NCBI GenBank assembly: GCA_026708015.1
Contig: JAPOVT010000048.1
Location: forward strand, 62,001 to 126,000
DNA: 64,000 bases
Direction: 5' to 3'
From: a bacterium
GTDB lineage: Bacteria; Actinomycetota; Acidimicrobiia; Acidimicrobiales; Bin134
This document shows positions 38,552-57,400 of the stretch, in pieces. Numbering within the stretch: position 1 is the first letter of the stretch; every line of letters starts with the position of its first letter. The position numbers and the translations under genes were made by a program. The notes below the pieces were generated by a model, which was not told the DNA's origin, made no database searches, and was given only the letters and a program-made list of their open reading frames with translations.

Positions 38552-39778
38552 ATGAGCGAGAAAGCGATGGTGGTCGATGGTGTGTCCAAGCGCTTTCAGC
38601 TGACTTTGGACCGGCCCCTGAGCCTGAAGGAAGCTTGGACGGGGCTGCGTCCCGGATCGGGCCGACCGTTCCGGCGAGTGCGCAGCGAGCCGTTCTGGGC
38701 CCTTCGCGACGTCAGCTTGGAGGTGCCCCGGGGCTCGATGTACGGACTGGTCGGACGCAACGGATCGGGCAAGTCCACCCTGTTGCGGGTCATGGCCGGG
38801 ATTTACCGGCCTACCGAGGGCCGGGTCGAGGTCAAGGGCCGGACTTCGGCCCTTTTGGAGCTGGGGGCGGGATTCCACCCCGCACTGAGCGGTCGGGAGA
38901 ACATCTATCTCAACGCCTCGGTGCTGGGAGTGCCGAAATCGCAGATTGACGACCGAGTGGAGCAGATCGTCGAGTTTGCGGGGTTGGAAGAGTTCATCGA
39001 CAGCCCCGTGAAGATCTACTCCAGCGGCATGTACGTGAGGCTGGGCTTTGCCGTTGCCGTCCACGTCGACCCCGAGATCCTCATCGTCGACGAGGTGGTC
39101 GCCGTGGGCGACGAGGAATTCCAGCTCCGGTGCTTCAGCCACCTGGAGTCGTTGCGGTCCCAAGGGGTGACCATCGTGCTGGTCAGCCACGATCTGGGCC
39201 TGCTGCGGGCCAACTGCGATCAGATGGCGTGGCTGAACCGGGGCCTTCTGGCGGCTGAGGGCGACCCGCAAAACGTGATCAACGCCTATCTCGACACCAT
39301 CGACACCGAGGGAGCTGCTTCGGTAGGCCATCGTCTCCGTCCCGACGCCGGGCAGGCGACCCCGCTGCGCATCACCAATCTGGAGTTCTTCGATGACGCC
39401 GGGCATCGGCCCAAGTCATTCGCCTCGGGAGACCCGCTGGTGGTGCGAATTCACTACTCCGCCTCGGAGCCGATTGAAGACCCGGTGTTCTCACTGGGGT
39501 TCTACGACCACAACAACCTTCACCTGGCCGGCCCCCGCTCCCATGCCGACGGATTTCGACCTGGCAAGGTAGACGGTGAGGGATGGGTGGAGTTTCGCTT
39601 GTCCCGCATTCCGTTCCGCTCCGGCGCGTTCCATGTCAACGCCGCGGTGCAGGATTCGGACGCTTCGTTCCTCTATGACCGTCGAGCCCGGGAGTTTTGG
39701 CTTCAGATCTCCGGCGAGCCCGACCCTCAGGCCAATGGACTGTTGAATCTGGAGGGCGACTGGCGGTCCGGAGTCTGA
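38552..39778 (+). CDS. ABC transporter ATP-binding protein with substrate-recognition domain (Wzt-like)
   Basis: The 408-residue product has Walker A GRNGSGKST, the signature YSSGMYVRLGFAVAV and Walker B EILIVDEVVAVGD, followed by an H-loop in LVSHDLGLL. Residues beyond 260 form an immunoglobulin-like beta-sandwich (ITNLEFFDDAGHRPKSFASG and on), as in Wzt proteins that read the end group of the exported O-antigen or glycan. It pairs with the permease upstream. A methyltransferase gene follows, and methylation at the non-reducing end is a known stop-and-export mark recognised by Wzt domains; a similar link here is inference. Confidence 0.93.
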   Translation: MSEKAMVVDGVSKRFQLTLDRPLSLKEAWTGLRPGSGRPFRRVRSEPFWALRDVSLEVPRGSMYGLVGRNGSGKSTLLRVMAGIYRPTEGRVEVKGRTSALLELGAGFHPALSGRENIYLNASVLGVPKSQIDDRVEQIVEFAGLEEFIDSPVKIYSSGMYVRLGFAVAVHVDPEILIVDEVVAVGDEEFQLRCFSHLESLRSQGVTIVLVSHDLGLLRANCDQMAWLNRGLLAAEGDPQNVINAYLDTIDTEGAASVGHRLRPDAGQATPLRITNLEFFDDAGHRPKSFASGDPLVVRIHYSASEPIEDPVFSLGFYDHNNLHLAGPRSHADGFRPGKVDGEGWVEFRLSRIPFRSGAFHVNAAVQDSDASFLYDRRAREFWLQISGEPDPQANGLLNLEGDWRSGV

Positions 39779-39789
39779 GGCGAGCTGGA

Positions 39790-41712
39790 ATGTCCTTTGA
39801 GCCCTTGCCAATCAACTCAATTGGTAAACCGCTTCCCTATGCCGATGGGGCTGAGGCTGAGCTGTTGACCCTATTCCGAACGGTTGAGGATCGCCGGGTG
39901 GGGTCGGATGAACTGGCGTCGGCGGTACGCGACTGGCCCACTGCCTATCACCTGGCTCCTGAGCGGGCTGTGCTCTTGGCCCCGGTCGCCATCGGACCGG
40001 ATGACCGGGTGCTGGACGTGGGGGCAGGCTCAGGTGTCAACACCCGGATCTGCGCCGACCGGGGGGCGGCGGTGACTGCGGTGGAGGGCAGCGCAGTCCG
40101 GGCGGAGCTGATCGCCCATCGCTGTGCCGGAATGGAAGGCGTTCGAGTGCTCTGTGGACCGCTCGAAGGGTTGGGAGACGACGGACGCGGGGCCTACGAC
40201 GTGGTTCTATTGGTGGGAGTGCTGGAATATGCCAGCACCGGCCATGGTGGGGGAGAGGGGCCAGAAGCCCTTCTCGCCCGAGTAGTCGATGCCCTGGCCC
40301 CGGACGGTGCGTTGGTGCTGGCCATTGAGAACCGCCTCGGACTCAAGTATCTGCTGGGCTTTCCCGAAGACCACCTGGGGCTGCCGTGGGTGGGATGGGA
40401 GGGCTATCGCGACGGGGAGCCCACCACCTGGTCTCGACGGGAGCTGGCCGGGATGCTGACTGACGCCGGGTTGGCGGCCCAGAGGTGGCTCTACCCGTTT
40501 CCCGACTACAAGCTGCCCACCGCGGTGTTGGCCGAGGAGATTTACGATCGGCCCGACGGTGTCGACATGGTGGACCAGATTGTGGGCCAGCCCACGAGCA
40601 GTGAGTACTTCCGTCCCGTCTTGGTTGCCGACGAGAGGGCCGCCCACCGGACGCTGCTTGCGGCCGGACTGGGACCCGATATGGCCAACTCATTCTTGGT
40701 GGTAGCTGGTCGGAGTCCCCAATCAGTGGAGGCCCGAGTCGATGGGCAGTCCCTGGCGTGGCGGGTGGCTCCTGATCGACGACAGCGGTGGAGGCAGCAA
40801 GCAGTTGTCGTTGATTCGGACCAAGGGCTGGTCGTGAAACGCCGCCTCATGGCACAAGCCGGGGTCTCTGATTTCGAAGAGTGGCTGGGGCAAGCCGAAG
40901 TGGCCGAGGAGGACTATTTCGCCGGTCGAAATCTCGAGCAGTGCCTGCTGGACTCTGCCCGGGAAGGCAATACCGACGAGATCGCCAGGCTGTTGAGGGC
41001 GTGGCGGGCGGCGCTAGCAGCTCACGAGACACCCATTGACTTGGTTGCCGCGCCCCATCCCTATCTGCCCGCCGATGCCAAATGGGTGCTGCCCCCCGAC
41101 TGGTTGGATGCTGGGCCGGACAACTTCGTGGTCACCGAGGACGGCCTCCAGTTCGTGGATCGGGAATGGCTAACGGCCGGGGGAGTGGATGTCCGGTTGG
41201 CCGTGGTCAGGGGGCTTTGGAAGACGGTCTCGGCCATGTTGAGCGCTCGCTGCCATCTGCCCTGGCCGGTGACCTGGAGCAACGACCGCCTCGTGGCCCA
41301 TCTCGGCACCTTGATCGGCGAGGACATCGACGATGAGCTGATGAGGCGGTGGAGGCAGGCGGAAGACGAACTGGTGCGTCGGGTGTACCGCCAGCCGGCG
41401 GCGAGGTTGGCCGAGCTGCACGATGTCGGCAGCCGCTCCCGTTTGGACCTGTTGGGATCGTCCCTGGCTCCGTACCGGCGCATGGAGCATTTGGTGCATC
41501 GGCAGCAGGAGCTGATTGCCCAGCTGACTGAGCAGCATGAGACGGCCGCGAGCCTAGAGGAGGCTCAAGCCCGCTTCGCTCGTGCCGAGGCTCAACTGGC
41601 AGAGCTTCAGGCCGAAGTCGCCGAGGCCCGAGAACGCTTGGCCCGGGTGGCCTGGCGAGAGCGAATCCACAACAGGGTCGCCAAGCTGATTCAAGGCATC
41701 CGCAACCGCTGA
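39790..41712 (+). CDS. SAM-dependent methyltransferase with long C-terminal extension
   Basis: The 640-residue product has a class I methyltransferase domain at about 60-200 (VLDVGAGSGVNTRICADRGA, VEGS, GAYDVVLLVGVLEYA), a middle region of 300 residues of unknown fold with PDWLDAGPDNFVVTEDGLQF and WLTAGGVDVRLAVVR, faintly reminiscent of kinase-like folds, and a C-terminal coiled coil (LAELQAEVAEARERLARVAW). Methyltransferase-coiled-coil proteins next to Wzm/Wzt can cap glycan chains and set their length, as WbdD does. The ATG at 39790 lies 11 bases after wzt; the frame's upstream part overlaps wzt and is rejected. It converges on the GT4 gene. Confidence 0.82.
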   Translation: MSFEPLPINSIGKPLPYADGAEAELLTLFRTVEDRRVGSDELASAVRDWPTAYHLAPERAVLLAPVAIGPDDRVLDVGAGSGVNTRICADRGAAVTAVEGSAVRAELIAHRCAGMEGVRVLCGPLEGLGDDGRGAYDVVLLVGVLEYASTGHGGGEGPEALLARVVDALAPDGALVLAIENRLGLKYLLGFPEDHLGLPWVGWEGYRDGEPTTWSRRELAGMLTDAGLAAQRWLYPFPDYKLPTAVLAEEIYDRPDGVDMVDQIVGQPTSSEYFRPVLVADERAAHRTLLAAGLGPDMANSFLVVAGRSPQSVEARVDGQSLAWRVAPDRRQRWRQQAVVVDSDQGLVVKRRLMAQAGVSDFEEWLGQAEVAEEDYFAGRNLEQCLLDSAREGNTDEIARLLRAWRAALAAHETPIDLVAAPHPYLPADAKWVLPPDWLDAGPDNFVVTEDGLQFVDREWLTAGGVDVRLAVVRGLWKTVSAMLSARCHLPWPVTWSNDRLVAHLGTLIGEDIDDELMRRWRQAEDELVRRVYRQPAARLAELHDVGSRSRLDLLGSSLAPYRRMEHLVHRQQELIAQLTEQHETAASLEEAQARFARAEAQLAELQAEVAEARERLARVAWRERIHNRVAKLIQGIRNR

Positions 41713-41726
41713 GGCTCTTGGCCAGT

Positions 41727-42788
41727 TCAATCCCGGGCTTCGACCAAGTCCTTGAGCGCGATCCACATCTGCTGGCGCGTGACCGAGATATCGAATCGCT
41801 GGGCCGCCTTGATGCCCCGGTCCCGCAGGCCATTCCTCAGCTGCTCGTCTTCCAAGACTCGGTCTAGGGCCGTAGCCATCGTCGCTGGCCGCTTGTCGCT
41901 GAGCACGATGCCCGCCCCGTTCACCGTCTCGGCCACTGCGGCGGCGTCGTAGGCCACCACGGGCAGGCCGTTGGCCATGGCCTCCACCAGGGGCACCCCG
42001 AATCCCTCGTGCTCCGACGCGCAGGCGAGCACATCCGAGAGCTGATACCACTGGAGCAGGTCTTTGTCGGAGACTTTGCCGGCAAAGACCACTCGACCAT
42101 GCACGCCGAGCCGGCGAGCAAGGCTCTTCAGGGAGAGCAGGTATTGAGGAGGAGAGGCGTCGCCAACCAGCACGAGCCTCGACAGGGGCCGGAAGCGGGA
42201 CAGCACTGCGAAAGCGGCGATGAGGTCGTGCTGGCACTTGTTGGGGGCCAGCCGCCCCACGAACAGCACGGTGCCGCCGTCCTCGGAGACCCCCGATTCG
42301 CCCTGGTCGAGTTGGCCGACACGGCCGCCCAACTGCCAGAGCACAGGGGAGACCACCACGTCGTTGATGCCCAAGTCCCTCAACTCTCGGGCATTGAATT
42401 CAGAGTCGGCTATGCCCCGGCGGGTGAGCGGCGCCAGTTGGCTGAGCTGCTGTCGTCCCCGCTCGACGCTCCTGGCCAGTTCGGGCTGCCAGGCCCGGAA
42501 GTAACTCGCCGGTGTGATGTTGTGGTAGTTCAGCACGATGGGAGATTTGTTGCGGATCGCGCCCTGAGCGACTTCTGAGCCGATGGAGTGCTGGAGAATC
42601 GAGACTCGCGCATCGCCCTTCCACCGCTCAATTGGGATTGTGCTGCTGTCTGCTCGGGTTCTCCGCTCGACGACGATGCGAACTTCGTAGCCCTTTTTCT
42701 CGAGTATTTCCTGAATGAGCCGCGTGTGGTTGCTGGTGGCGTCGGCGGAGGCCATCTGGGGAATCAGTATGTCGACAGCCGGGCTCAT
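41727..42788 (-). CDS. Family 4 glycosyltransferase
   Basis: The 353-residue product is a GT-B enzyme: VLFVGRLAPNKCQHDLIAAF starts the donor-binding domain, and ACASEHEGFGVPLVEAMANG is the E-x7-E-type motif of family GT4. It is one of several glycosyltransferases likely to build the same surface polymer. The ATG (MSPAVDILIP) lies at the last rung of the 50-bp mini-ORF array, with ATGA overlap to the preceding mini-ORF and no strong Shine-Dalgarno, so its translation may depend on ribosomes arriving through the array. It converges on the methyltransferase gene with 14 bases between stops. Confidence 0.9.
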   Translation of the reverse strand: MSPAVDILIPQMASADATSNHTRLIQEILEKKGYEVRIVVERRTRADSSTIPIERWKGDARVSILQHSIGSEVAQGAIRNKSPIVLNYHNITPASYFRAWQPELARSVERGRQQLSQLAPLTRRGIADSEFNARELRDLGINDVVVSPVLWQLGGRVGQLDQGESGVSEDGGTVLFVGRLAPNKCQHDLIAAFAVLSRFRPLSRLVLVGDASPPQYLLSLKSLARRLGVHGRVVFAGKVSDKDLLQWYQLSDVLACASEHEGFGVPLVEAMANGLPVVAYDAAAVAETVNGAGIVLSDKRPATMATALDRVLEDEQLRNGLRDRGIKAAQRFDISVTRQQMWIALKDLVEARD

Positions 42789-43080
42789 GCTTCGCTCGGT
42801 TCGGAGTCGTTCGAGGAGTTTGCCGTAGCCGGGCTCATGCTTCGCTCGGTTCGGAGTCGTTCGAGGAGTTTGCCGTAGCCGGGCTCATGCTTCGCTCGGT
42901 TCGGAGTCGTTCGAGGAGTTTGCCGTAGCCGGGCTCATGCTTCGCTCGGTTCGGAGTCGTTCGAGGAGTTTGCCGTAGCCGGGCTCATGCTTCGCTCGGT
43001 TCGGAGTCGTTCGAGGAGTTTGCCGTAGCCGGGCTCATGTTTCGCTCGGTTCGGAGTCGTTCGCGGAGTTTGCCGTGCGG
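42781..43080 (-). repeat. Six tandem 50-bp repeats forming a mini-ORF ladder
   Basis: Five exact 50-base units (42781-43030) are followed by a sixth with four changes near its ends and middle (43031-43080). The sixth unit is the 3' end of the upstream methyltransferase gene (TANSANDSEPSET), and the unit boundary contains the ATG of the downstream GT4 gene. The array therefore looks like serial duplication of the junction between two overlapping genes. There are no spacers, so it is not a CRISPR array. Confidence 0.95.
42785..43038 (-). other. Five overlapping 17-residue mini-ORFs
   Basis: On the reverse strand each repeat unit encodes ATG to TGA of 54 bases, reading MSPATANSSNDSEPSEA, at 43038-42985, 42988-42935, 42938-42885, 42888-42835 and 42838-42785. 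Since 54 minus the 4-base ATGA overlap is 50, every stop overlaps the next start, and the last stop overlaps the GT4 ATG at 42788. Whether the peptides are made is unknown; the arrangement would allow repeated termination and re-initiation. Only a weak GAG lies before each ATG. Confidence 0.6.
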
Positions 43081-44009
43081 CGGGCCACGACTATCTGGCT
43101 GATGCGGGAGTCGGCGCAGGGCTCAAGCCGGGCGTCGAAGCCGGCGCGCTCCAGCAGGTGTCGCCAGGTGAGCGGTGAGATGCCCAGACCCGATCCCAGC
43201 TCCGACTCGACCTGGCTCCGGGATGTTGGATCGGCCACGGCCACGATGATCCGGCCGGCACCCTTCAGCTTCAAGCTGGCCTGGTTGATCATCCCGATCA
43301 GGTCCTTCAGCGGGAGGTTCTCAACCATGCCGGTGAGCACGATCGTTCCGAATTCCCCGTCTTCGGAGCCCACCAAGTGGGCGAGCACGTCGCCGGTTCG
43401 GACGTCGATTCGACGGTTGAGTCCGGTGAACACTCGGTCGGGATCTTGTTCGACGCCATAGGTGCGCATGCCCCGGTCGCCAATGGCCTCAACGAGGGCT
43501 CCTTGTCCCGCGGAGAGCACCAGGCACGGCTCCGACCCCGCAAGCCCGGCCACTTGAGCGACAACTTCGGCCGACGGCTCGGGGGGATCATCGAGAATGC
43601 CCCATCCAGCAGGAACAGACTGGTCGATGGGAAGACCGGCGGCATCCTCCAAGCGGCCCAGGCGGGCTTCAAGGCTGCGCAGATGCCGGATCAGCACTCC
43701 GGCGAACAGGTTGAATTGGTCGGTCAAGAATCGGACGTACCAGTAAGTCAGCTTGCGAATTGCCCACTTGATGCCCCGAAGGCCACGGCGCGACCCGATG
43801 GGCACCTGGGGGTCGAGTGCGGCCAGACTCGCAGTTTGGTCGAGAAGGTGGCCGTCGTGGCTGAGCACATCGAAGGAGCCTCCGGAAGGAGACAAGTCGG
43901 CCCAGACCTGCTCGGTTTCGAGTTCGAGCAGAGCGATTTCGCTGTCTTGTCGGCGCCGATTGTCGGCCTCGGCCTCGAATTCCGCGCTGATCCGCTTCGT
44001 GTCGACCAA
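43035..44009 (-). CDS. Methyltransferase-like protein
   Basis: The 324-residue product has an N-terminal helical part (residues 1-130), with a possible membrane-associated stretch KLTYWYVRFLTDQFNLFAGV, and a C-terminal Rossmann-like domain: PCLVLSAGQGALVEAIGDRG, TYGVEQDPDR, IDVRTGDVLAHL and FGTIVLTGMVENLPLKDL. This follows the class I methyltransferase order, though the glycine motif is atypical (SAGQG). Its last residues TANSANDSEPSET are the source of the downstream 50-bp repeats. The stop overlaps the first mini-ORF ATG. It follows the GT2 gene by seven bases. Confidence 0.78.
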   Translation of the reverse strand: MVDTKRISAEFEAEADNRRRQDSEIALLELETEQVWADLSPSGGSFDVLSHDGHLLDQTASLAALDPQVPIGSRRGLRGIKWAIRKLTYWYVRFLTDQFNLFAGVLIRHLRSLEARLGRLEDAAGLPIDQSVPAGWGILDDPPEPSAEVVAQVAGLAGSEPCLVLSAGQGALVEAIGDRGMRTYGVEQDPDRVFTGLNRRIDVRTGDVLAHLVGSEDGEFGTIVLTGMVENLPLKDLIGMINQASLKLKGAGRIIVAVADPTSRSQVESELGSGLGISPLTWRHLLERAGFDARLEPCADSRISQIVVARRTANSANDSEPSET

Positions 44010-44016
44010 TTAGGGC

Positions 44017-45285
44017 CTACTCATCTCGTTCATCTCGGCGTGGTCTCCGAGCGAGCCTCCGAGCGAGCCGGAAGATGGCCGATCGGCCAAGGTCCTCACG
44101 CAGGCGGAGGTTCTCGGCCTCCAATTCGGCGATGCGGGCGTCTTGCTCGGCGGCGCGGGCATCCTTTTCGGCTATGCGTATGTCCCGTTCGGCGATGCGG
44201 GCATCTCGCTCGGCTATGCGGACGTCTCGCTCGGCTATGCGGGTGTCCCGCTCAGCGACGCGGTCCTTCCACTCCTCGATAAGGGTGTTCCGCTCGTCAA
44301 CCCGTTCTTCTAGCTCGGCAATTCTGTCGTCTTGATTGGCGACGCGGTCGGCGAGCTGCTGGCTGCGCGTTTCGGCGCCCAAGGCTCTTTCGCGCAGGCT
44401 GAGAATCTCGTGGCGGATCTGCTCGTGATCCTCACTGTCGACCAGGTCTGCGACCATGGGTGAATCGTAGTGGTGGCCAGTCGCAGAATTGACGGGGAGG
44501 TGCCAAGAGCTGGCGTCCTCGCCCCAGCGGGCGATGAACCTCTCCCATTCCCAAGGCTCGATCACCGGTGCCCGGCTGGCGCTCTCGTGGTGTATCAGGG
44601 TGGCAGCGGGCTCCACCACTACTCGCAAGCCCGATCGGAGAAGCCGGAGGCACAAATCGATGTCGCCGTAGGAAGCAGGAAACTCTAGCGACATCCCCCC
44701 AACGGTCAGCACGTCACTGCGTCGGGCGAGCAGGCAGGCCCCGGTAACGCTGATCACATCGTGGGCCACATCGGCCCCGGCCGCGGCGGCTTCAGATAGC
44801 TGACATCCCCGGAACGAGTGAATGGGCTGGGCGTCTCCGATCTCTATGCCGATGTGCTGAATCGACCGGTCGGGATACAGCAAGGTTGCCCCGACGGCAC
44901 CGATGGTGGGATCGTCGAGATGAGCGGCCATTTGGACCAGCCAATCGGTGGTTTCTGCCTCGATGTCATCGTTGAGCATCAGAATAAGCTTCCCGCTGCT
45001 GGCCAACAGCCCGCAGTTGACGGCCCTGGAGAAGTCGAAGGTTCCCGGGCCCCGGTGTATGACCTCTACTGGCAGGCTGTTCGCTGACCGGAGTGATGGC
45101 CGGGGCTGCTCACCCTGGAACTCATCGCCCACCACCACGATCACTTCCTTGGGCAAGGGCTCGAGTTGGGCCAGAGTGTCCAGACAGCGGTTCAGCATCG
45201 ATGTCTCAGCACCGGGCAGGCGTTGGCCGGCGCTGGGAATGATGATCGAGGTGCTGGCCTGTGAGTGCGGTTGGGGATCGGCCAT
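44017..45285 (-). CDS. Family 2 glycosyltransferase with C-terminal coiled coil
   Basis: The 422-residue product has the GT2 motifs TSIIIPSAGQ, EVIVVVGDEF, LMLNDDIEAETTDWLVQM and VTGACLLARRSDVLTVGG, with ASYGDIDLCLRLLRSGLRVV giving the acceptor-side ED-type motif. From about residue 320 it becomes a long coiled coil with the seven-residue unit RIAERDx repeated about eight times, ending in a basic RLARRLARRPRR. The coil may scaffold partner enzymes. The ATG at 45285 gives a compact N-terminus; the frame is open to a GTG at 45375 that overlaps the carboxylase gene. It starts the polysaccharide sub-operon that includes the repeat array. Confidence 0.86.
   Translation of the reverse strand: MADPQPHSQASTSIIIPSAGQRLPGAETSMLNRCLDTLAQLEPLPKEVIVVVGDEFQGEQPRPSLRSANSLPVEVIHRGPGTFDFSRAVNCGLLASSGKLILMLNDDIEAETTDWLVQMAAHLDDPTIGAVGATLLYPDRSIQHIGIEIGDAQPIHSFRGCQLSEAAAAGADVAHDVISVTGACLLARRSDVLTVGGMSLEFPASYGDIDLCLRLLRSGLRVVVEPAATLIHHESASRAPVIEPWEWERFIARWGEDASSWHLPVNSATGHHYDSPMVADLVDSEDHEQIRHEILSLRERALGAETRSQQLADRVANQDDRIAELEERVDERNTLIEEWKDRVAERDTRIAERDVRIAERDARIAERDIRIAEKDARAAEQDARIAELEAENLRLREDLGRSAIFRLARRLARRPRRDERDE
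44128..44275 (-). repeat. 21-bp coding repeats (RIAERDx heptads)
   Basis: About seven imperfect 21-base units encode RIAERDx heptads in the coiled-coil tail of the GT2 protein. The number of units could change in frame by recombination. Confidence 0.7.
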
Positions 45286-45343
45286 GAGCTTGTTCGATGC
45301 TACCGGGGGGCTGGCCGGGCTGACAGCCGGCGCAGAGCGGTGT

Positions 45344-47101
45344 CTATTCGATGACTGCCACCACGTCGCCACCACCCACCGAATCTCCCTCGGCCACCTT
45401 GATCTCGGTCACCGTGCCTGACTTCTCGGCGCACACGTTGTTCTCCATCTTCATGGCTTCGAGCACGACGATGGGATCACCGGCTTCCACTGTGTCGCCC
45501 TCGGCCACCATGACCTTCACGATGGTTCCCTGCATGGGAACGATGACGTCGCCGCTCCCGCCGCTGCCTCCGCTCTTGCTGGCCGCGGCTCGCTTGGGGC
45601 GTTTGGCTCCGCTCGGCCCGGAAGCGACGGCGGCTGGAGCGGTTTCGGGAACCCACATCCTCACCGAGTAGCGCTGTCCGTTGACCTCCACGTCGATGTC
45701 CCGCTGTACCAGGGGCTCGGTGTCGGAGGGGGGGCTGGCCGGGGCGCTCTTGACTCCGGTCAGGTCGAGCGTCTCCTCCACCCACTTGGTGGAGTGGGTG
45801 AGGGCGGCGAAATCGGGGTGGGCCAGGATGGCCTTGTCGGCGGGAATGGTGGTGGCCACCCCGCTCACTTCCAGCTCGTCGAGGGCCCGCAGGGTGCGGG
45901 CAATGGCAGTGGGCCGATCTCGGCCCCAGCAGATCAGCTTGCCCACCAGATTGTCGTAGAACTGGCTGATCTCATCTCCGGCCTCGTACCCCCCGTCCCA
46001 ACGGGTTCCGTACCCGCTGGGCGCCCGCAGGCCGGTGATCGGCCCCGGTGACGGCAGGAAGGCGCCCTCGGCGGGGTCCTCGGCGTTGATGCGCACTTCG
46101 ATGGCGTGGCCGGATATCTCGATTTCGTCCTGGGTGAACGGCAGGGGCTCGCCGGAGGCCACCTTGATCTGTTGCTCTACCAGGTCGATCCCGGTGACGA
46201 GCTCGGTGGCCGGATGCTCCACTTGGAGGCGGGTGTTCATCTCCAAGTAATAGAACTGGCCGTCCTCATACAGGAACTCCACCGTGCCGGCGTTCACGTA
46301 GTCGCAGCCCTGGGCCACCTTTACCGCGGCCTCGCCCATGGCGGCCAGGACTTCGGGGTCGATGCCGGCCGCGGGGGCCTCCTCGATCAGCTTCTGATGG
46401 CGGCGCTGGGCTGAGCAGTCGCGGGTGCCGAGATATACGCAATTGCCGTGGCTGTCGGCCAGAACCTGCACCTCAACGTGGCGAGGTTTCTCCAGATAGC
46501 GCTCCATGTAGATCTCGTCGCGCCCGAAATAGCTGAGGGCCTCCCGCTGGGCCGACTCGATGGCCTCCTCCACCACGCTCTCGTCGGCCACCACCTTCAT
46601 GCCCCGGCCGCCGCCGCCGTAGGCCGCCTTGATGGCCACAGGGTAGCCGTGCTCATCTCCGAAGGCCCTGACCTGGTCGGGGTCGGTGATGAGGTCGGTG
46701 GTGCCGGGAACTCCGCTCACCCCGACCCGCTCGGCGGCCTGGCGGGCAGAGATCTTGTCGCCCATGACCTCGATTGCCTCGGGGTTGGGGCCGATGAACG
46801 CCACGCCCTGGGCAGTGATGGCCCGGGCGAAGTCAGCGTTCTCGGAGAAGAAGCCGTAGCCGGGGTGGACGCCGTCGGCCCCGGTGCGCTCGATCACATC
46901 GAGGATGGCCTCGGTGTTGAGGTAGCTCTCGGCCGCGGTTTGACCGCCCAGCGCGTGGGCCTCATCGGCCATCCGCACATGGAGGGCGCTGCGGTCGAGG
47001 TCGGAGTACACCGCCACCGTGGCGATGCCCAACTCCCGGCAGGCCCGGATCACTCGAACAGCGATCTCCCCCCGGTTTGCGATCAGCACCTTGGACAACA
47101 C
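45344..47101 (-). CDS. Acetyl/propionyl-CoA carboxylase alpha subunit (biotin carboxylase plus BCCP)
   Basis: The 585-residue product fuses biotin carboxylase (residues 1-450) to a biotin carboxyl carrier domain. Seen are LIANRGEIAVRVIRACRELG, the ATP-grasp GGGGRGMKVV loop, EMNTRLQVEHPATELVTGID, and near the end VVLEAMKMENNV with the biotinylated lysine. Such AccA-type subunits work with a beta subunit (not in this window) to make malonyl- or methylmalonyl-CoA. A Gly-Ser-Pro-Ala linker separates the domains. It is divergent from the biotin ligase gene that would modify it, with a 69-base gap between starts, which suggests coordinated expression. The start is GTG. Confidence 0.94.
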   Translation of the reverse strand: MLSKVLIANRGEIAVRVIRACRELGIATVAVYSDLDRSALHVRMADEAHALGGQTAAESYLNTEAILDVIERTGADGVHPGYGFFSENADFARAITAQGVAFIGPNPEAIEVMGDKISARQAAERVGVSGVPGTTDLITDPDQVRAFGDEHGYPVAIKAAYGGGGRGMKVVADESVVEEAIESAQREALSYFGRDEIYMERYLEKPRHVEVQVLADSHGNCVYLGTRDCSAQRRHQKLIEEAPAAGIDPEVLAAMGEAAVKVAQGCDYVNAGTVEFLYEDGQFYYLEMNTRLQVEHPATELVTGIDLVEQQIKVASGEPLPFTQDEIEISGHAIEVRINAEDPAEGAFLPSPGPITGLRAPSGYGTRWDGGYEAGDEISQFYDNLVGKLICWGRDRPTAIARTLRALDELEVSGVATTIPADKAILAHPDFAALTHSTKWVEETLDLTGVKSAPASPPSDTEPLVQRDIDVEVNGQRYSVRMWVPETAPAAVASGPSGAKRPKRAAASKSGGSGGSGDVIVPMQGTIVKVMVAEGDTVEAGDPIVVLEAMKMENNVCAEKSGTVTEIKVAEGDSVGGGDVVAVIE

Positions 47102-51706: not shown

Positions 51707-54376
51707 CTATCTGAGGGGCAATTCAGCAATGGCGGTCATCTCGGCACCGGTGCGGGTGATGATCTTGACGGCCACGTTGTTGCCAGGGCGGGGCGGGGGG
51801 AAGGGCTGCGACACGGTGCCGCACAGGGCTTCCTCGGCTGTTTTGTCGAGGTTTTTTCCGAGCGACTTGAGCAGCCGCTTGATCTGGGGGTCGCCCCGTT
51901 TGTAGCCGGTCAGGTACACCAGGCGGGGGAAGAAGCCGGTGCCGTCGTGATCGGTGTCGACCATCCAGCAGTCCACATCGGCGCCGCTCGACTGCTTGAC
52001 CCGCCCAGTGGAGGGGTCGTAGGTGTCGTAGCCCGCCAGTTCCACCACCAGATTGCCCTCGCGGTCGCGCTCGCAGAACACGTCGGGCTCGCCCAAAAGC
52101 GTGAGCGCACCGGCGTCGGGCTCGGTGCCGAGACCGGGGATTTGCAGGTCGCGCGACGCGGCCACCTTATGGACCCGCACCGCACCGGCATCGGCGCTAG
52201 TCGCGTCCTCGAAGGCGCCGGCCACGATGATGAGGTCGGAGATGTCGTGGCGGGCTCGCCGAGCCTCGCTGGCGGCTCGGGCGATCATCTCGGCGCTCAC
52301 CGTGACATCGGAGGCGGCCAGCATGATGGCCGCGGTGAGCCGGGTCTCCCGACCCGGTGCGGTGCAGTCGGCCTCGTGCGATACCAGTAGGCCGCGGGGC
52401 CACGGGGTGGTCTCGACCACGCTCAATACCTCTTGGCCCGAGGCATCGCAGATGGGATGGGCGATCAGCGCCTCGAGCAGTCGCTCGGCATTCTGGCCTT
52501 CGGCAGCGCCAATGTCGGTGGCCTGCGCAGCCGGGTCTTCGCTGAACGGCAGGTAGGCGTAGGGCGATGCCGACTCCACCGTGAACGGCCCAGTTAGCCG
52601 GGAACGCTTGGTGTCCTCCCTGGGTCGGTCGACCAGATAGATGGTGTTCTCGGGGTCGTGTACCGTGTTGTAGGCCAAAGTGGCCGCGGAGACCCGTTGC
52701 ATAGTCTCTACCTCCAGCCCTGCGGCGGGATCGCTGCTCCCATCGCGGGTGAGGTACCAGGGATGCACCGCGGTGAGCAGGTGGCGACGGGCCACAGCGA
52801 TGGAGACCCGCCCGACGTCGATCCCGATCCAGCGCCGTCCCCAATGCTCAGCCATATGCGGTGTGACCCCGGAGCCACAGGTGGGATCAAGGACAAGATC
52901 GCCGGGGTCGGTGGCCATGAGGATGCAGCGCTCGATGACCGGATTAGCAGTCTGAACTACGTAGCGTTTAGTCAATCTAGTGGACATCACACTCGGCCAC
53001 ATGTTGTCAATCCGTCTTCCTGGTACTTCCCTTTCGTACCACTTCCAGTGCAGTTGTCCACCAGCACCACTGCCATGCAAACGGCCAATTTGGGCAAGTC
53101 GATCGAGGCCACACACTTCATCCTCGCCGCCGTTAGGCGGCGAATTCACTCCAATGGCGCGTGCTTCCGTCCCAGTGGCGTGTGTCTGCTCCTCAGGAGT
53201 AGACACACTCCAATGGCGCGTGCTTCCAGAATGGTATGTTATCCCATCGTACTCATATTCGCAAGTGCGTCCAGTTGTTGAAGCCCCTTGAGAGGTTAGA
53301 GGCATACTTCGAAAAATCTTGCCCTCCTTGGGCAAGTGGGTGTCAGGTTCTGCTCTTTCATTTTGTGACAGACTTCTCACTGACCCATCGCTGCATTCGA
53401 ATAGAGCTGCCCAAGAGAACAGATCTAAGACTTCTTTGCGAGTTAAACGTTCATAGATTTGTCTATATTTTAGAACCTCGCGATCTTTTGCATACCACAG
53501 TAAGTAACTTGCTGTCTCCGGAAGTGTTCTTGCTGATGAACCACCTGTTGGCTTCCATGTAATTGTTGCCACCCGATTCTCTTCTCCAAACACTTCATCA
53601 CACAGCACGGCAAGCCTGTGTACGTTGTCATCTCCGATTTGCAAGAACAAGGAACCTGACTCCGCCAAGAGTTCGCGGAATAGCACTAGTCTCTCGTGGA
53701 TTTCGTCGAGGTAGGAGTGGATGCCGTTGCGGTAGGTGTCCCGGAATGCCTTGATGGGCAGAGTGTCGCCCACCGGGATGCCGGTGTCGTCGTTCTTGGT
53801 TTCGAGTTTGTCGGTGGCGGTCATGAAGTTGGAGTTGTATTTGATGCCGTAGGGTGGGTCGAAGTAGATCATCTGCACTTGTCCGGCTAGGGCGTCGCGG
53901 GCGATGAGCGATTGCATCACCTCAGCAGAGTCGCCGTGGATGAGGCGGTTCTGCCAGTGGCCGGAGTGCTGGTAGAACTCCCACTTCTGAGCATCGGCGG
54001 GCAGGCCGTTGAAGTCGTCGAGCAGGTTAAGCGGCACCCCGGCGTCGGGGCGGCGAAGCTGGTCGATCATGGTTAGCGGGTTGATCTTTTCCCTCGTGTA
54101 CAGCGGTGTTCCCGCGAAGCGGTGGGGGCCGTCATCGGCTGAGGTGTGGCCTTGGCGGTCCCAGGCCAGCCGGGGCGTCGGCTGGGCGGCGCGGTCGGTG
54201 GTCGCCTGGTCCGCAGGCAGTCCGGTATCGACACGGGTCACGGTGAACTCCTTGGGTTGGCGTTGGTAGTCGTCCATGAGCGGTGCCGTCTCGGCTGTGG
54301 GCTGGTACACCCGCGACGCCTGCTCGTGGCGGTACGCCCCCGGTGGGCGGGGCGGACCAGAGGATCGTCGAGCCAC
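51707..54376 (-). CDS. Site-specific adenine DNA methyltransferase (type III Mod-like)
   Basis: The 889-residue product has motif IV DPPYGIKYNSN at residues 173-183, SGSLFLQIGDDN after it, and motif I LVLDPTCGSGVTPHMAEHWG near residue 500, the order of class beta N6-adenine methyltransferases, in which the target-recognition domain lies between. About 370 further residues of unknown role follow. The GTG start overlaps the Res stop (TAGTG), so translation is probably coupled to Res. The part from about 52960 to 53700, residues 226-472, is visibly A/T-richer than the rest and contains direct repeats, pointing to exchange of the recognition domain. Confidence 0.92.
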   Translation of the reverse strand: MARRSSGPPRPPGAYRHEQASRVYQPTAETAPLMDDYQRQPKEFTVTRVDTGLPADQATTDRAAQPTPRLAWDRQGHTSADDGPHRFAGTPLYTREKINPLTMIDQLRRPDAGVPLNLLDDFNGLPADAQKWEFYQHSGHWQNRLIHGDSAEVMQSLIARDALAGQVQMIYFDPPYGIKYNSNFMTATDKLETKNDDTGIPVGDTLPIKAFRDTYRNGIHSYLDEIHERLVLFRELLAESGSLFLQIGDDNVHRLAVLCDEVFGEENRVATITWKPTGGSSARTLPETASYLLWYAKDREVLKYRQIYERLTRKEVLDLFSWAALFECSDGSVRSLSQNERAEPDTHLPKEGKIFRSMPLTSQGASTTGRTCEYEYDGITYHSGSTRHWSVSTPEEQTHATGTEARAIGVNSPPNGGEDEVCGLDRLAQIGRLHGSGAGGQLHWKWYEREVPGRRIDNMWPSVMSTRLTKRYVVQTANPVIERCILMATDPGDLVLDPTCGSGVTPHMAEHWGRRWIGIDVGRVSIAVARRHLLTAVHPWYLTRDGSSDPAAGLEVETMQRVSAATLAYNTVHDPENTIYLVDRPREDTKRSRLTGPFTVESASPYAYLPFSEDPAAQATDIGAAEGQNAERLLEALIAHPICDASGQEVLSVVETTPWPRGLLVSHEADCTAPGRETRLTAAIMLAASDVTVSAEMIARAASEARRARHDISDLIIVAGAFEDATSADAGAVRVHKVAASRDLQIPGLGTEPDAGALTLLGEPDVFCERDREGNLVVELAGYDTYDPSTGRVKQSSGADVDCWMVDTDHDGTGFFPRLVYLTGYKRGDPQIKRLLKSLGKNLDKTAEEALCGTVSQPFPPPRPGNNVAVKIITRTGAEMTAIAELPLR
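53147..53227. repeat. 22-bp direct repeats flanking an inverted repeat in the Mod gene
   Basis: Bases 53147-53168 and 53206-53227 are identical, with a 59-base period. Between them TGTGTCTGCTCCT (53181-53193) and AGGAGTAGACACA (53195-53207) form a 13-bp inverted repeat with a single G-T pair and one central base; a degenerate third copy of the direct repeat overlaps it. The two copies are read in different frames (GSTRHWSV and EARAIGV). Confidence 0.85.
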
Positions 54377-55819
54377 TACGTCGCTCCTTCCTTGAGGGCT
54401 GCCTTGATGGCCAAATCGAGTTGGTAGCGCACCGAGCCAGCATCGTCGACCACCCCGTAGTGCCAGCTCCGAAGCTCATCGGGAAGCTCAGTGGTGCCGG
54501 CCACGCACGGAATCCAGTGATTCTCGGTCCAGTGTTTGGCGGCGATGGCCTTGTCGTCCCACGCGCCCTTGCACTCCAAAATGAGGTTCGCGCCCCCCTC
54601 GAGCCGGGCCACGAAATCGGGTTCATAGCGCCGCCACACGGTTTCGTCCCAATAGGGGATGCTCCAGCCCAGTTGGAAGTTGCGGGCCCAGGCCGTGACC
54701 CGGCGGTCGGCGTCGAGCGCCTCGGCGCAAAGCAGTTCCAGGTTGGAATGGCACGCGGCGTGGGACAACTCGGAGTGGCGGGTTTCGTGGATGTGGGCCA
54801 AGGTGGTTTCGAAATCCACCCTGGCGGTGTCGAAGATGGCGGGCTGGGCCAGTCGGGCCCGCCGGGGGGATTCCTGCTCGGCACCGAAGTCGCAGGCATC
54901 CAGGATGGCCTCGGCGGCCTCGAGCCGGTTGGCGGGATCGGCCACCACCGGTCGTAAGTCGTAGACCTCTGTGGCGGGATCGCCGACCACGTTGGGGTGG
55001 GCCGCCCATTGGCCTACCGCGGCCAGCGCGGAGCGGAACAACGAGGCTCGACCCTGCTGGCGTTCCTCGGCCGGGTTGCCAGCGGAGTCGCGATTGTGGT
55101 TGCCGATGGTCAGATGACTGGCGATTTCAGAGGCCAACCACATTTGGGCAGTTCGCTGTCGCTCACCATCGGCCAGTGAGCTGAGGATCGTCTCCTCGCC
55201 CACCGTTCCCTGCAACGCGGTGGTGGTGGGCGTCGTCTGCGGCTTGGGCCTCCACGGCTTCACCCGGTTGAGTTCTAGGGCGAACCGGCCTTGGGGAGCG
55301 GTCCGCACATACTCGGTGACCTGGGGCCAGGCAACGCGGTGATCACGGCGGCCTTCCAGAGTGTGGACTCGGGTGCGGGGTTTGGGCGGCTTGGGGGCGA
55401 CGTTAGGCTGGCCCGCGCCGGGCATGAACTCGAAGGGGATGCCCACCACATCGGCGTACTCGGCCTCGAGGAGTTGGCGGCCGTCGTCGGTGTCGCGCAG
55501 CGCGTCGTAGGAGGTACGGCGCAGCGCTCGCCCAGTGACCTGCTCGCACAGGAGCTGGGTGCTGAAGGCCCGAAAACCCACGATGTGGGTCACAGTGCGG
55601 GCGTCCCATCCTTCAGTGAGCATGGCAACCGACACCACGCAACGAACGTCGGCGCCGGGCTGGCCTGGCTTGCCCACGGTGTTGAGCATCTCCCGCACCG
55701 CGGCCTCGGCGTCCTTTTTGCTGTCGAGCCCCGCGGTCCGCACCAGCAGGGTCTTCAGCGAGTCGGGGATCGTGTCGCCCTCGGCTACCTTGCTGTGGAC
55801 GACGAGGGTTCGGGGTGAG

Positions 55820-57400
<1,581 letters not shown>

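Follow-up and report, generated by a model that had tools for sequence, protein, structure and literature searches.

The window, the whole stretch of 64,000 nucleotides analysed here, carries on its minus strand a methyltransferase-like gene followed by the gene of a GT4-type glycosyltransferase, and between them lies a ladder of five short open reading frames, called rungs in the following, that is built from tandem 50-bp units (Table 1). Tandem Repeats Finder, applied to the window, places the array at 42777-43076 with a period of 50, 6.0 copies and a match of 99%; the array of the original prediction is thus real, but its coordinates (42781-43080) were four bases off. The five rungs, spanning 42789-43038 on the minus strand, are letter-for-letter identical (ATGAGCCCGGCTACGGCAAACTCCTCGAACGACTCCGAACCGAGCGAAGC), each of them translating to MSPATANSSNDSEPSEA, and the supposed sixth unit turned out to be the methyltransferase's own tail (ACGGCAAACTCCGCGAACGACTCCGAACCGAGCGAAAC), which departs from the repeat sequence in two places (TCCGCG and GAAAC). 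The tail of sister species G018 has TCCTCG, the same as the array units, so that at this position the older sequence seems to survive in the repeats. Perfect periodicity over 263 bp is beyond what chance can produce, and in the 0.36 Mb of the same genome that were sampled first, the array ranks among the two highest-scoring tandem arrays, the other being a 99-bp repeat within a gene.

Minus-strand ATGs are found at 43038, 42988, 42938, 42888, 42838 and 42788, the last one being GT4's own start, and every mini-ORF, starting with its ATG, ends with the TGA contained in the following ATGA. Rung 1 shares its ATG with the stop codon of the methyltransferase gene (TGA, 43037-43035) in one such overlap, and GT4 shares its own with the stop of rung 5 in another. 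ATGA is therefore present at all six junctions (methyltransferase/rung 1, rung/rung and rung 5/GT4), which maps the predicted six terminations and restarts before GT4 as six stop/start events. The unit itself is a chimera, in which the first 12 nt of GT4 are followed by a copy of the 38 nt that precede the ATGA at the end of the methyltransferase gene. With NTGA at both ends of a unit, the stop falls into the mini-ORF's own frame only if the unit has a length of 3n+2, a rule that 50 fits.

Table 1. Array, rungs and neighbouring genes (positions in the window)
Feature	Position	Strand	Basis or remark
GT2-family glycosyltransferase, upstream of the methyltransferase	44017..45375	-	same strand; probably same operon
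Methyltransferase-like, upstream gene	43035..44009	-	weak Pfam MetW match; stop inside ATGA; source of the units' 3' 38 nt
Perfectly period-50 stretch, 263 bp	42777..43039	-	five units and first 12 nt of GT4
Rung 1, mini-ORF MSPATANSSNDSEPSEA	42985..43038	-	ATGA overlap with methyltransferase stop and rung 2
Rung 2, identical 17-codon mini-ORF	42935..42988	-	sequence identity
Rung 3, identical 17-codon mini-ORF	42885..42938	-	sequence identity
Rung 4, identical 17-codon mini-ORF	42835..42888	-	sequence identity
Rung 5, identical 17-codon mini-ORF	42785..42838	-	TGA overlaps GT4 ATG
GT4-type glycosyltransferase, downstream gene	41727..42788	-	Glycos_transf_1

Further repeats were seen elsewhere in the window. 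The C-terminal end of the GT2 gene (44126-44263) contains 21-bp imperfect repeats encoding AERDARI-like heptads, probably a coiled coil, and a plus-strand methyltransferase (39697-41712) likewise appears to have a coiled-coil-like stretch at its end. A perfect (AG)n tract of 33 nt (55982-56014, AG on the minus strand) sits where an ORF matching Type III restriction Res (ResIII; 57400..55820, minus strand) ends and an ORF at 55950..54376 (minus strand) continues in another frame, next to an N6/N4 DNA methylase gene (51707-54376). The appearance is that of a phase-variable res gene of a Type III restriction-modification system, out of frame in this assembly.

The methyltransferase-GT4 junction across the genus

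The source genome (G000) has a size of 3.5 Mb, spread over 67 contigs. The other members of the genus are Acidimicrobiia with metagenome-assembled genomes; two carry the name Candidatus Poriferisocius, pointing to an association with sponges. We compared the junction in the 20 genomes, source genome included, in which both genes are adjacent, using a tree from concatenated proteins. In sister species G018 (support 97/98, GT4 92% identical), the methyltransferase and GT4 genes are directly ATGA-overlapped without any rung, and a direct NTGA overlap is found in 12 of the 20 species, namely G018 and 11 others. Three closely related species have in common one rung of 41 nt with ATGA at both ends and the peptide MSLAVPIMSPLSRP, which also obeys 3n+2 and is independent of the ladder of the source genome. 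On this comparison the ancestral junction was a direct -4 overlap, and the ladder is derived, having arisen on the branch leading to the source genome. An origin by duplication of the gene junction, as originally proposed, agrees well with a unit joining GT4 start to methyltransferase end and with the undivided junction of the sister species. Searching the whole source genome for dispersed copies of the 50-bp unit gave the array itself as the single match, and in the 22 genomes of the genus no unit was detected outside the orthologous junction.

The number of rungs at this junction is 0, 1 or 5 between species, with the protein cores unchanged, which bears out the expectation that repeat number can change without altering either protein. 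Both genes are under purifying selection, with a dN/dS of about 0.10 for GT4 against the sister species and of 0.16 for the methyltransferase. In G005, a neighbour of the species with the 41-nt rung, a 70-bp duplication of the junction yields a mini-ORF that ends early and breaks the chain, the gene still being present, and in three species the two genes are separated by a TAG stop and a gap of 2-8 nt; tight coupling is thus not indispensable here. Elsewhere the methyltransferase tail has acquired in-frame repeats (G021, G009 and G018), the GT4 N-terminus a repeat (G001) and the junction a 12-bp duplication (G011), which reveals the junction as a place of repeated small tandem duplication. The C-terminal tails of G021 and G009 are lengthened, showing about four DTSNPP-like copies and DIVVA/DIADG copies.

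This variety, including the frame-breaking duplication of G005, would also suit a plain minisatellite, in which duplications are tolerated by a tail that is prone to slippage and free of constraint, translation is unaffected and the frame is not selected, and the five identical copies suggest a recent expansion. We nevertheless regard such a minisatellite as unlikely because of two observations that it does not predict, both given below: the frame bias of NTGA-bounded gaps with their stop-free bridging frames, and the exact length of 38 nt that is kept by a rung at another junction over the genus.

Further ladders and the frame of gene gaps

Tandem-repeat and NTGA-chain scans of sampled genome stretches uncovered two further multi-rung ladders in the source genome. 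One of them, between gmd (GDP-mannose 4,6-dehydratase) and cofD, consists of two 38-nt TTGA rungs (G000:C48:128941-129016, minus strand; locus L095, 2941-3016) and lies 24 kb from the methyltransferase-GT4 array on the same contig. The other, between trpF and trpB, has three GTGA rungs of 38 nt each, in which GAGGAG forms a Shine-Dalgarno-like motif (G000:C18:42932-43045, minus strand; locus L228, 2932-3045); trpB was identified by the PALP match of TrpB, and trpF by its recognisable TrpF N-terminus. At both junctions the -4 chain is unbroken in all 21 genomes, and the rungs vary. For gmd-cofD, 15 genomes carry one 38-nt rung, the source genome two, G002 one of 77 nt and four genomes none; for trpF-trpB, three 38-nt rungs in the source genome stand beside two in the sister species, one of 47 nt in six others and none in 13. 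Aligning 14 gmd-cofD rungs revealed conserved start and end regions, the latter with an SD-like motif and the stop/start, and a middle part that is about equally variable at the three codon positions (0.60/0.66/0.62), so it is the length and frame that are conserved and not the peptide.

Shorter ladders were found as well. The junction of an amidohydrolase and an APH-type kinase in the source genome holds a single 41-nt rung which, by inspection, differs from the copied gene end only synonymously, and G014, a single-contig chromosome, has a ladder of a 41-nt and a 17-nt rung. In G014 we also noticed three exact 38-bp ATGA units (L218, 16925) upstream of a 238-codon ORF with no Pfam match, either another ladder or a false ORF. 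Ladders at different junctions have their architecture in common, their unit sequences being unrelated.

Chance NTGA chains between unrelated frames are common, as a chain histogram revealed, so chains alone were not taken as evidence and a mod-3 control was used. Most of the further ladders came from scans that favour or require 3n+2, so that the length rule can be tested without bias only by counting gap lengths modulo 3. A simple codon model served to call genes in 2.23 Mb (1.43 Mb of the source genome and 0.4 Mb each of G007 and G014), and from these we took co-directional neighbours that lie 10-200 nt apart, with NTGA both at the stop of the first gene and at the start of the second. By length modulo 3, these gaps are distributed as 18:52:19 (n = 89, p = 1.1e-6), the largest class being the one that a mini-ORF can bridge, and the bias holds in each genome alone (p = 0.004 for G000, 0.02 for G007 and 0.0004 for G014). 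In the same 2.23 Mb, pairs lacking NTGA at one or both ends displayed no excess of the bridgeable class. The bridging frame is stop-free in 46 of 52 bridgeable gaps, compared with 5/18 and 3/19 in the other classes, and by size the bridging mini-ORFs form one cluster of 11-19 codons and a second of 4-7. Pairs with NTGA at the upstream end only have an excess in class 2, which we attribute to true -4 pairs whose starts were mis-called. The gene gaps also peak at 46 nt (17 gaps), and as NTGA is present at both ends in only 4 of these 17, the peak consists only partly of rungs. Mini-genes that keep the frame thus recur at many further junctions in the genus, where ribosomes are probably handed on across inserted DNA.

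We consider it probable that the ladder works as a relay and goes back to an ATGA-coupled junction which was duplicated locally in tandem and then grew to five exact units. With a unit of 3n+2 (50), every copy is an open mini-ORF beginning and ending in ATGA. Reinitiation works only over very short distances, so an insertion of 250 nt would normally cut GT4 off from the ribosomes finishing the methyltransferase; meeting a stop/start every 50 nt, these could terminate and restart at each rung and so reach GT4. Duplications of 3n+2 would be tolerated or kept since they re-create coupled mini-ORFs, and others would be removed or break the coupling. The encoded peptide is probably irrelevant; the number of rungs may drift by slippage or unequal recombination, and the GT4 dose may shift as a side effect. 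The same logic would account for the shorter ladders and single rungs at other junctions of the genus. This reading is well supported by the genome comparison, and the ribosome relay through the rungs, already part of the original prediction, gains indirect support from the frame bias in three genomes and from the length-conserved, peptide-variable rung of gmd-cofD.

Published reporter data fit mini-ORFs acting as relays in two respects, as in E. coli a gap of +38 nt (almost) abolishes reinitiation and the last 15 nt of the upstream gene are enough for coupling (PMC10666635). Strong coupling was also seen in most of the native overlapping gene pairs that have been assayed (PMC6728339). Upstream of every rung, and of GT4 too, the anti-SD match is weak (-2.2; the median over 198 direct -4 junctions is -5.3), which on the one hand suggests that reinitiation would dominate over fresh initiation, but on the other hand counts against the relay, as passage through six restarts may be inefficient.

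The number of rungs and the role of the units

Under an adaptive interpretation, the number of rungs would be a heritable and mutable setting of GT4 expression, and thereby of a surface glycan, whose variability is selected. The source genome and its sister indeed differ at three junctions, with 5 versus 0 rungs at methyltransferase-GT4, 3 versus 2 at trpF-trpB and 2 versus 1 at gmd-cofD, and in M. tuberculosis the repeat length before fpg1 correlates with the fpg1 mRNA level (PMC2734929). In a simple flux calculation with p as reinitiation rate and i as de novo rate, i/(1-p) is the value that the output approaches with the number of rungs, n. If reinitiation is 0.5-0.7 per step and de novo initiation is rare, five rungs would reduce GT4 by a factor of several to about 30; with p = 0.5 and i = 0, about 1.6% of the flux through the methyltransferase would be left. 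Where reinitiation is efficient or de novo starts contribute, the effect would be small or of opposite sign: at p = 0.9 and i = 0 about 53% would pass five rungs, and with a large i more than 100%. Depending on p and i, more rungs could hence lower, hardly change or raise GT4. Ladders occur also in trp and cofactor genes, where a variable dose has no obvious advantage, and we find selection for a variable setting distinctly unlikely; a rheostat role of rung number as such is possible but unproven. A broader proposition, which we put forward tentatively, is that relay mini-ORFs in the operons of the genus, and possibly more widely, are self-generated, arising from duplications that survive only at 3n+2 and then diverge while frame and ends are held, their number being a heritable, mutable setting of downstream translation.

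The count of five has to be read with some care. Contig C48 begins with 51 C, resembling the poly-G artefact of two-colour Illumina chemistry, so the assembly probably stems from short reads, and as the 263 bp of exact periodicity exceed the length of such reads, the number may be the assembler's estimate. The existence of the repeat units is not in doubt; their exact number may be inexact. That the assembly inflated the copy number is, however, quite improbable, since assemblers usually collapse such repeats rather than expand them, unique sequence anchors the first and last copies of the array, and G014, with its single-contig chromosome of 3.6 Mb, has both a ladder of two rungs and the same frame bias.

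Repeats may also act as DNA or RNA elements controlling GT4, be it as internal promoter, protein-binding array or RNA structure, and in M. tuberculosis promoter activity resides in the region between senX3 and regX3, which contains MIRUs (PMC4213456). For the array we hold this to be very improbable: scanning it gave no match to a sigma-70-type promoter or terminator, its predicted RNA folding is no better than that of shuffled sequence (z = 0.59), and the ladders elsewhere are alike in architecture and unlike in sequence. It is hardly credible that the array serves to produce the 17-residue peptide as such in five copies, for although the five ORFs are identical and the amidohydrolase-APH rung has only synonymous changes, MSPATANSSNDSEPSEA is absent from the methyltransferase-GT4 junction of all other species, rungs elsewhere encode unrelated, divergent peptides, and the gmd-cofD rung lacks a codon-position signal.

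If relaying holds, genes of an operon can stay coupled even when hundreds of bases come to lie between them, and relay mini-ORFs missed by gene callers can be found by a simple rule, namely two NTGA sites at a distance of 3n+2 with no stop in between. The genus supplies a natural series of 0, 1, 2, 3 and 5 rungs at defined junctions, by which the efficiency of serial termination-reinitiation, and the idea that MIRU-like repeats are tolerated for the coupling they preserve, become directly testable.

Comparison with known repeat and coupling systems

The original prediction knew of no named element of this kind, yet two related types have been described in mycobacteria, namely MIRUs with -4 nt coupling (PMC12548453) and RTGA-coupled small ORFs (PMC4633059). 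In MIRUs, an ORF inside the repeat is coupled to the gene at the insertion site with a spacing of -4 nt (PMC12548453). Like MIRU04/ETR-D and the senX3-regX3 units, which are tandem repeats of 40-100 bp at an operon junction, the ladder has 50-bp tandem units between two co-directional genes and ORFs overlapping their neighbours by -4 nt. The unit lengths reported for MIRUs, 77 and 53 bp (PMC2453075, PMC4213456), are 3n+2 as well. The copy number of MIRUs varies; the number of rungs differs between species (0, 1, 5). However, MIRUs are scattered at about 41 loci (PMC2734929) and appear mobile, whereas the ladder unit is confined to one locus and built from the flanking gene ends, the other ladders of the genome having their own unrelated units. 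Being a chimera of local origin that occurs at no other place in the genome, the unit is not a MIRU by descent. Bacterial minisatellites (VNTRs) combine an exact tandem array with a variable copy number; the array is exact in the one genome of its species that was covered. Among known repeats, the fpg1 repeat of M. tuberculosis (ETR-F/VNTR3239) comes close, since 55- and 79-bp repeats fill a rnc-fpg1 junction that measures a few bp in many other mycobacteria, but the effect there was measured on mRNA and coupled mini-ORFs are not mentioned, as far as the available text of PMC2734929 goes.

The rungs share with RTGA/NUGA-coupled small ORFs a short reading frame whose stop overlaps the next start and which delivers ribosomes to it. 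For the mycobacterial RTGA type, the coupled linkage is reportedly sometimes conserved rather than the peptide (PMC4633059, Shell et al. 2015), suggesting that linkage is under greater selection, and in uPPE2-PPE2 the small ORF uPPE2 is an experimentally supported relay, called an "indispensable relay" (PMC11260477). Such ORFs are mostly single and located at the transcript start, whereas the ladder consists of tandem exact copies between two genes, derived from junction duplication. Directly ATGA-overlapping (-4) gene pairs (PMC6728339, PMC10666635) involve the same elementary step of termination and reinitiation as each rung, but with two long genes and one overlap in place of a chain of overlaps through mini-ORFs. 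Against this background, the origin by junction duplication, the multi-rung ladders at several loci and the frame bias across the genus appear to be new.
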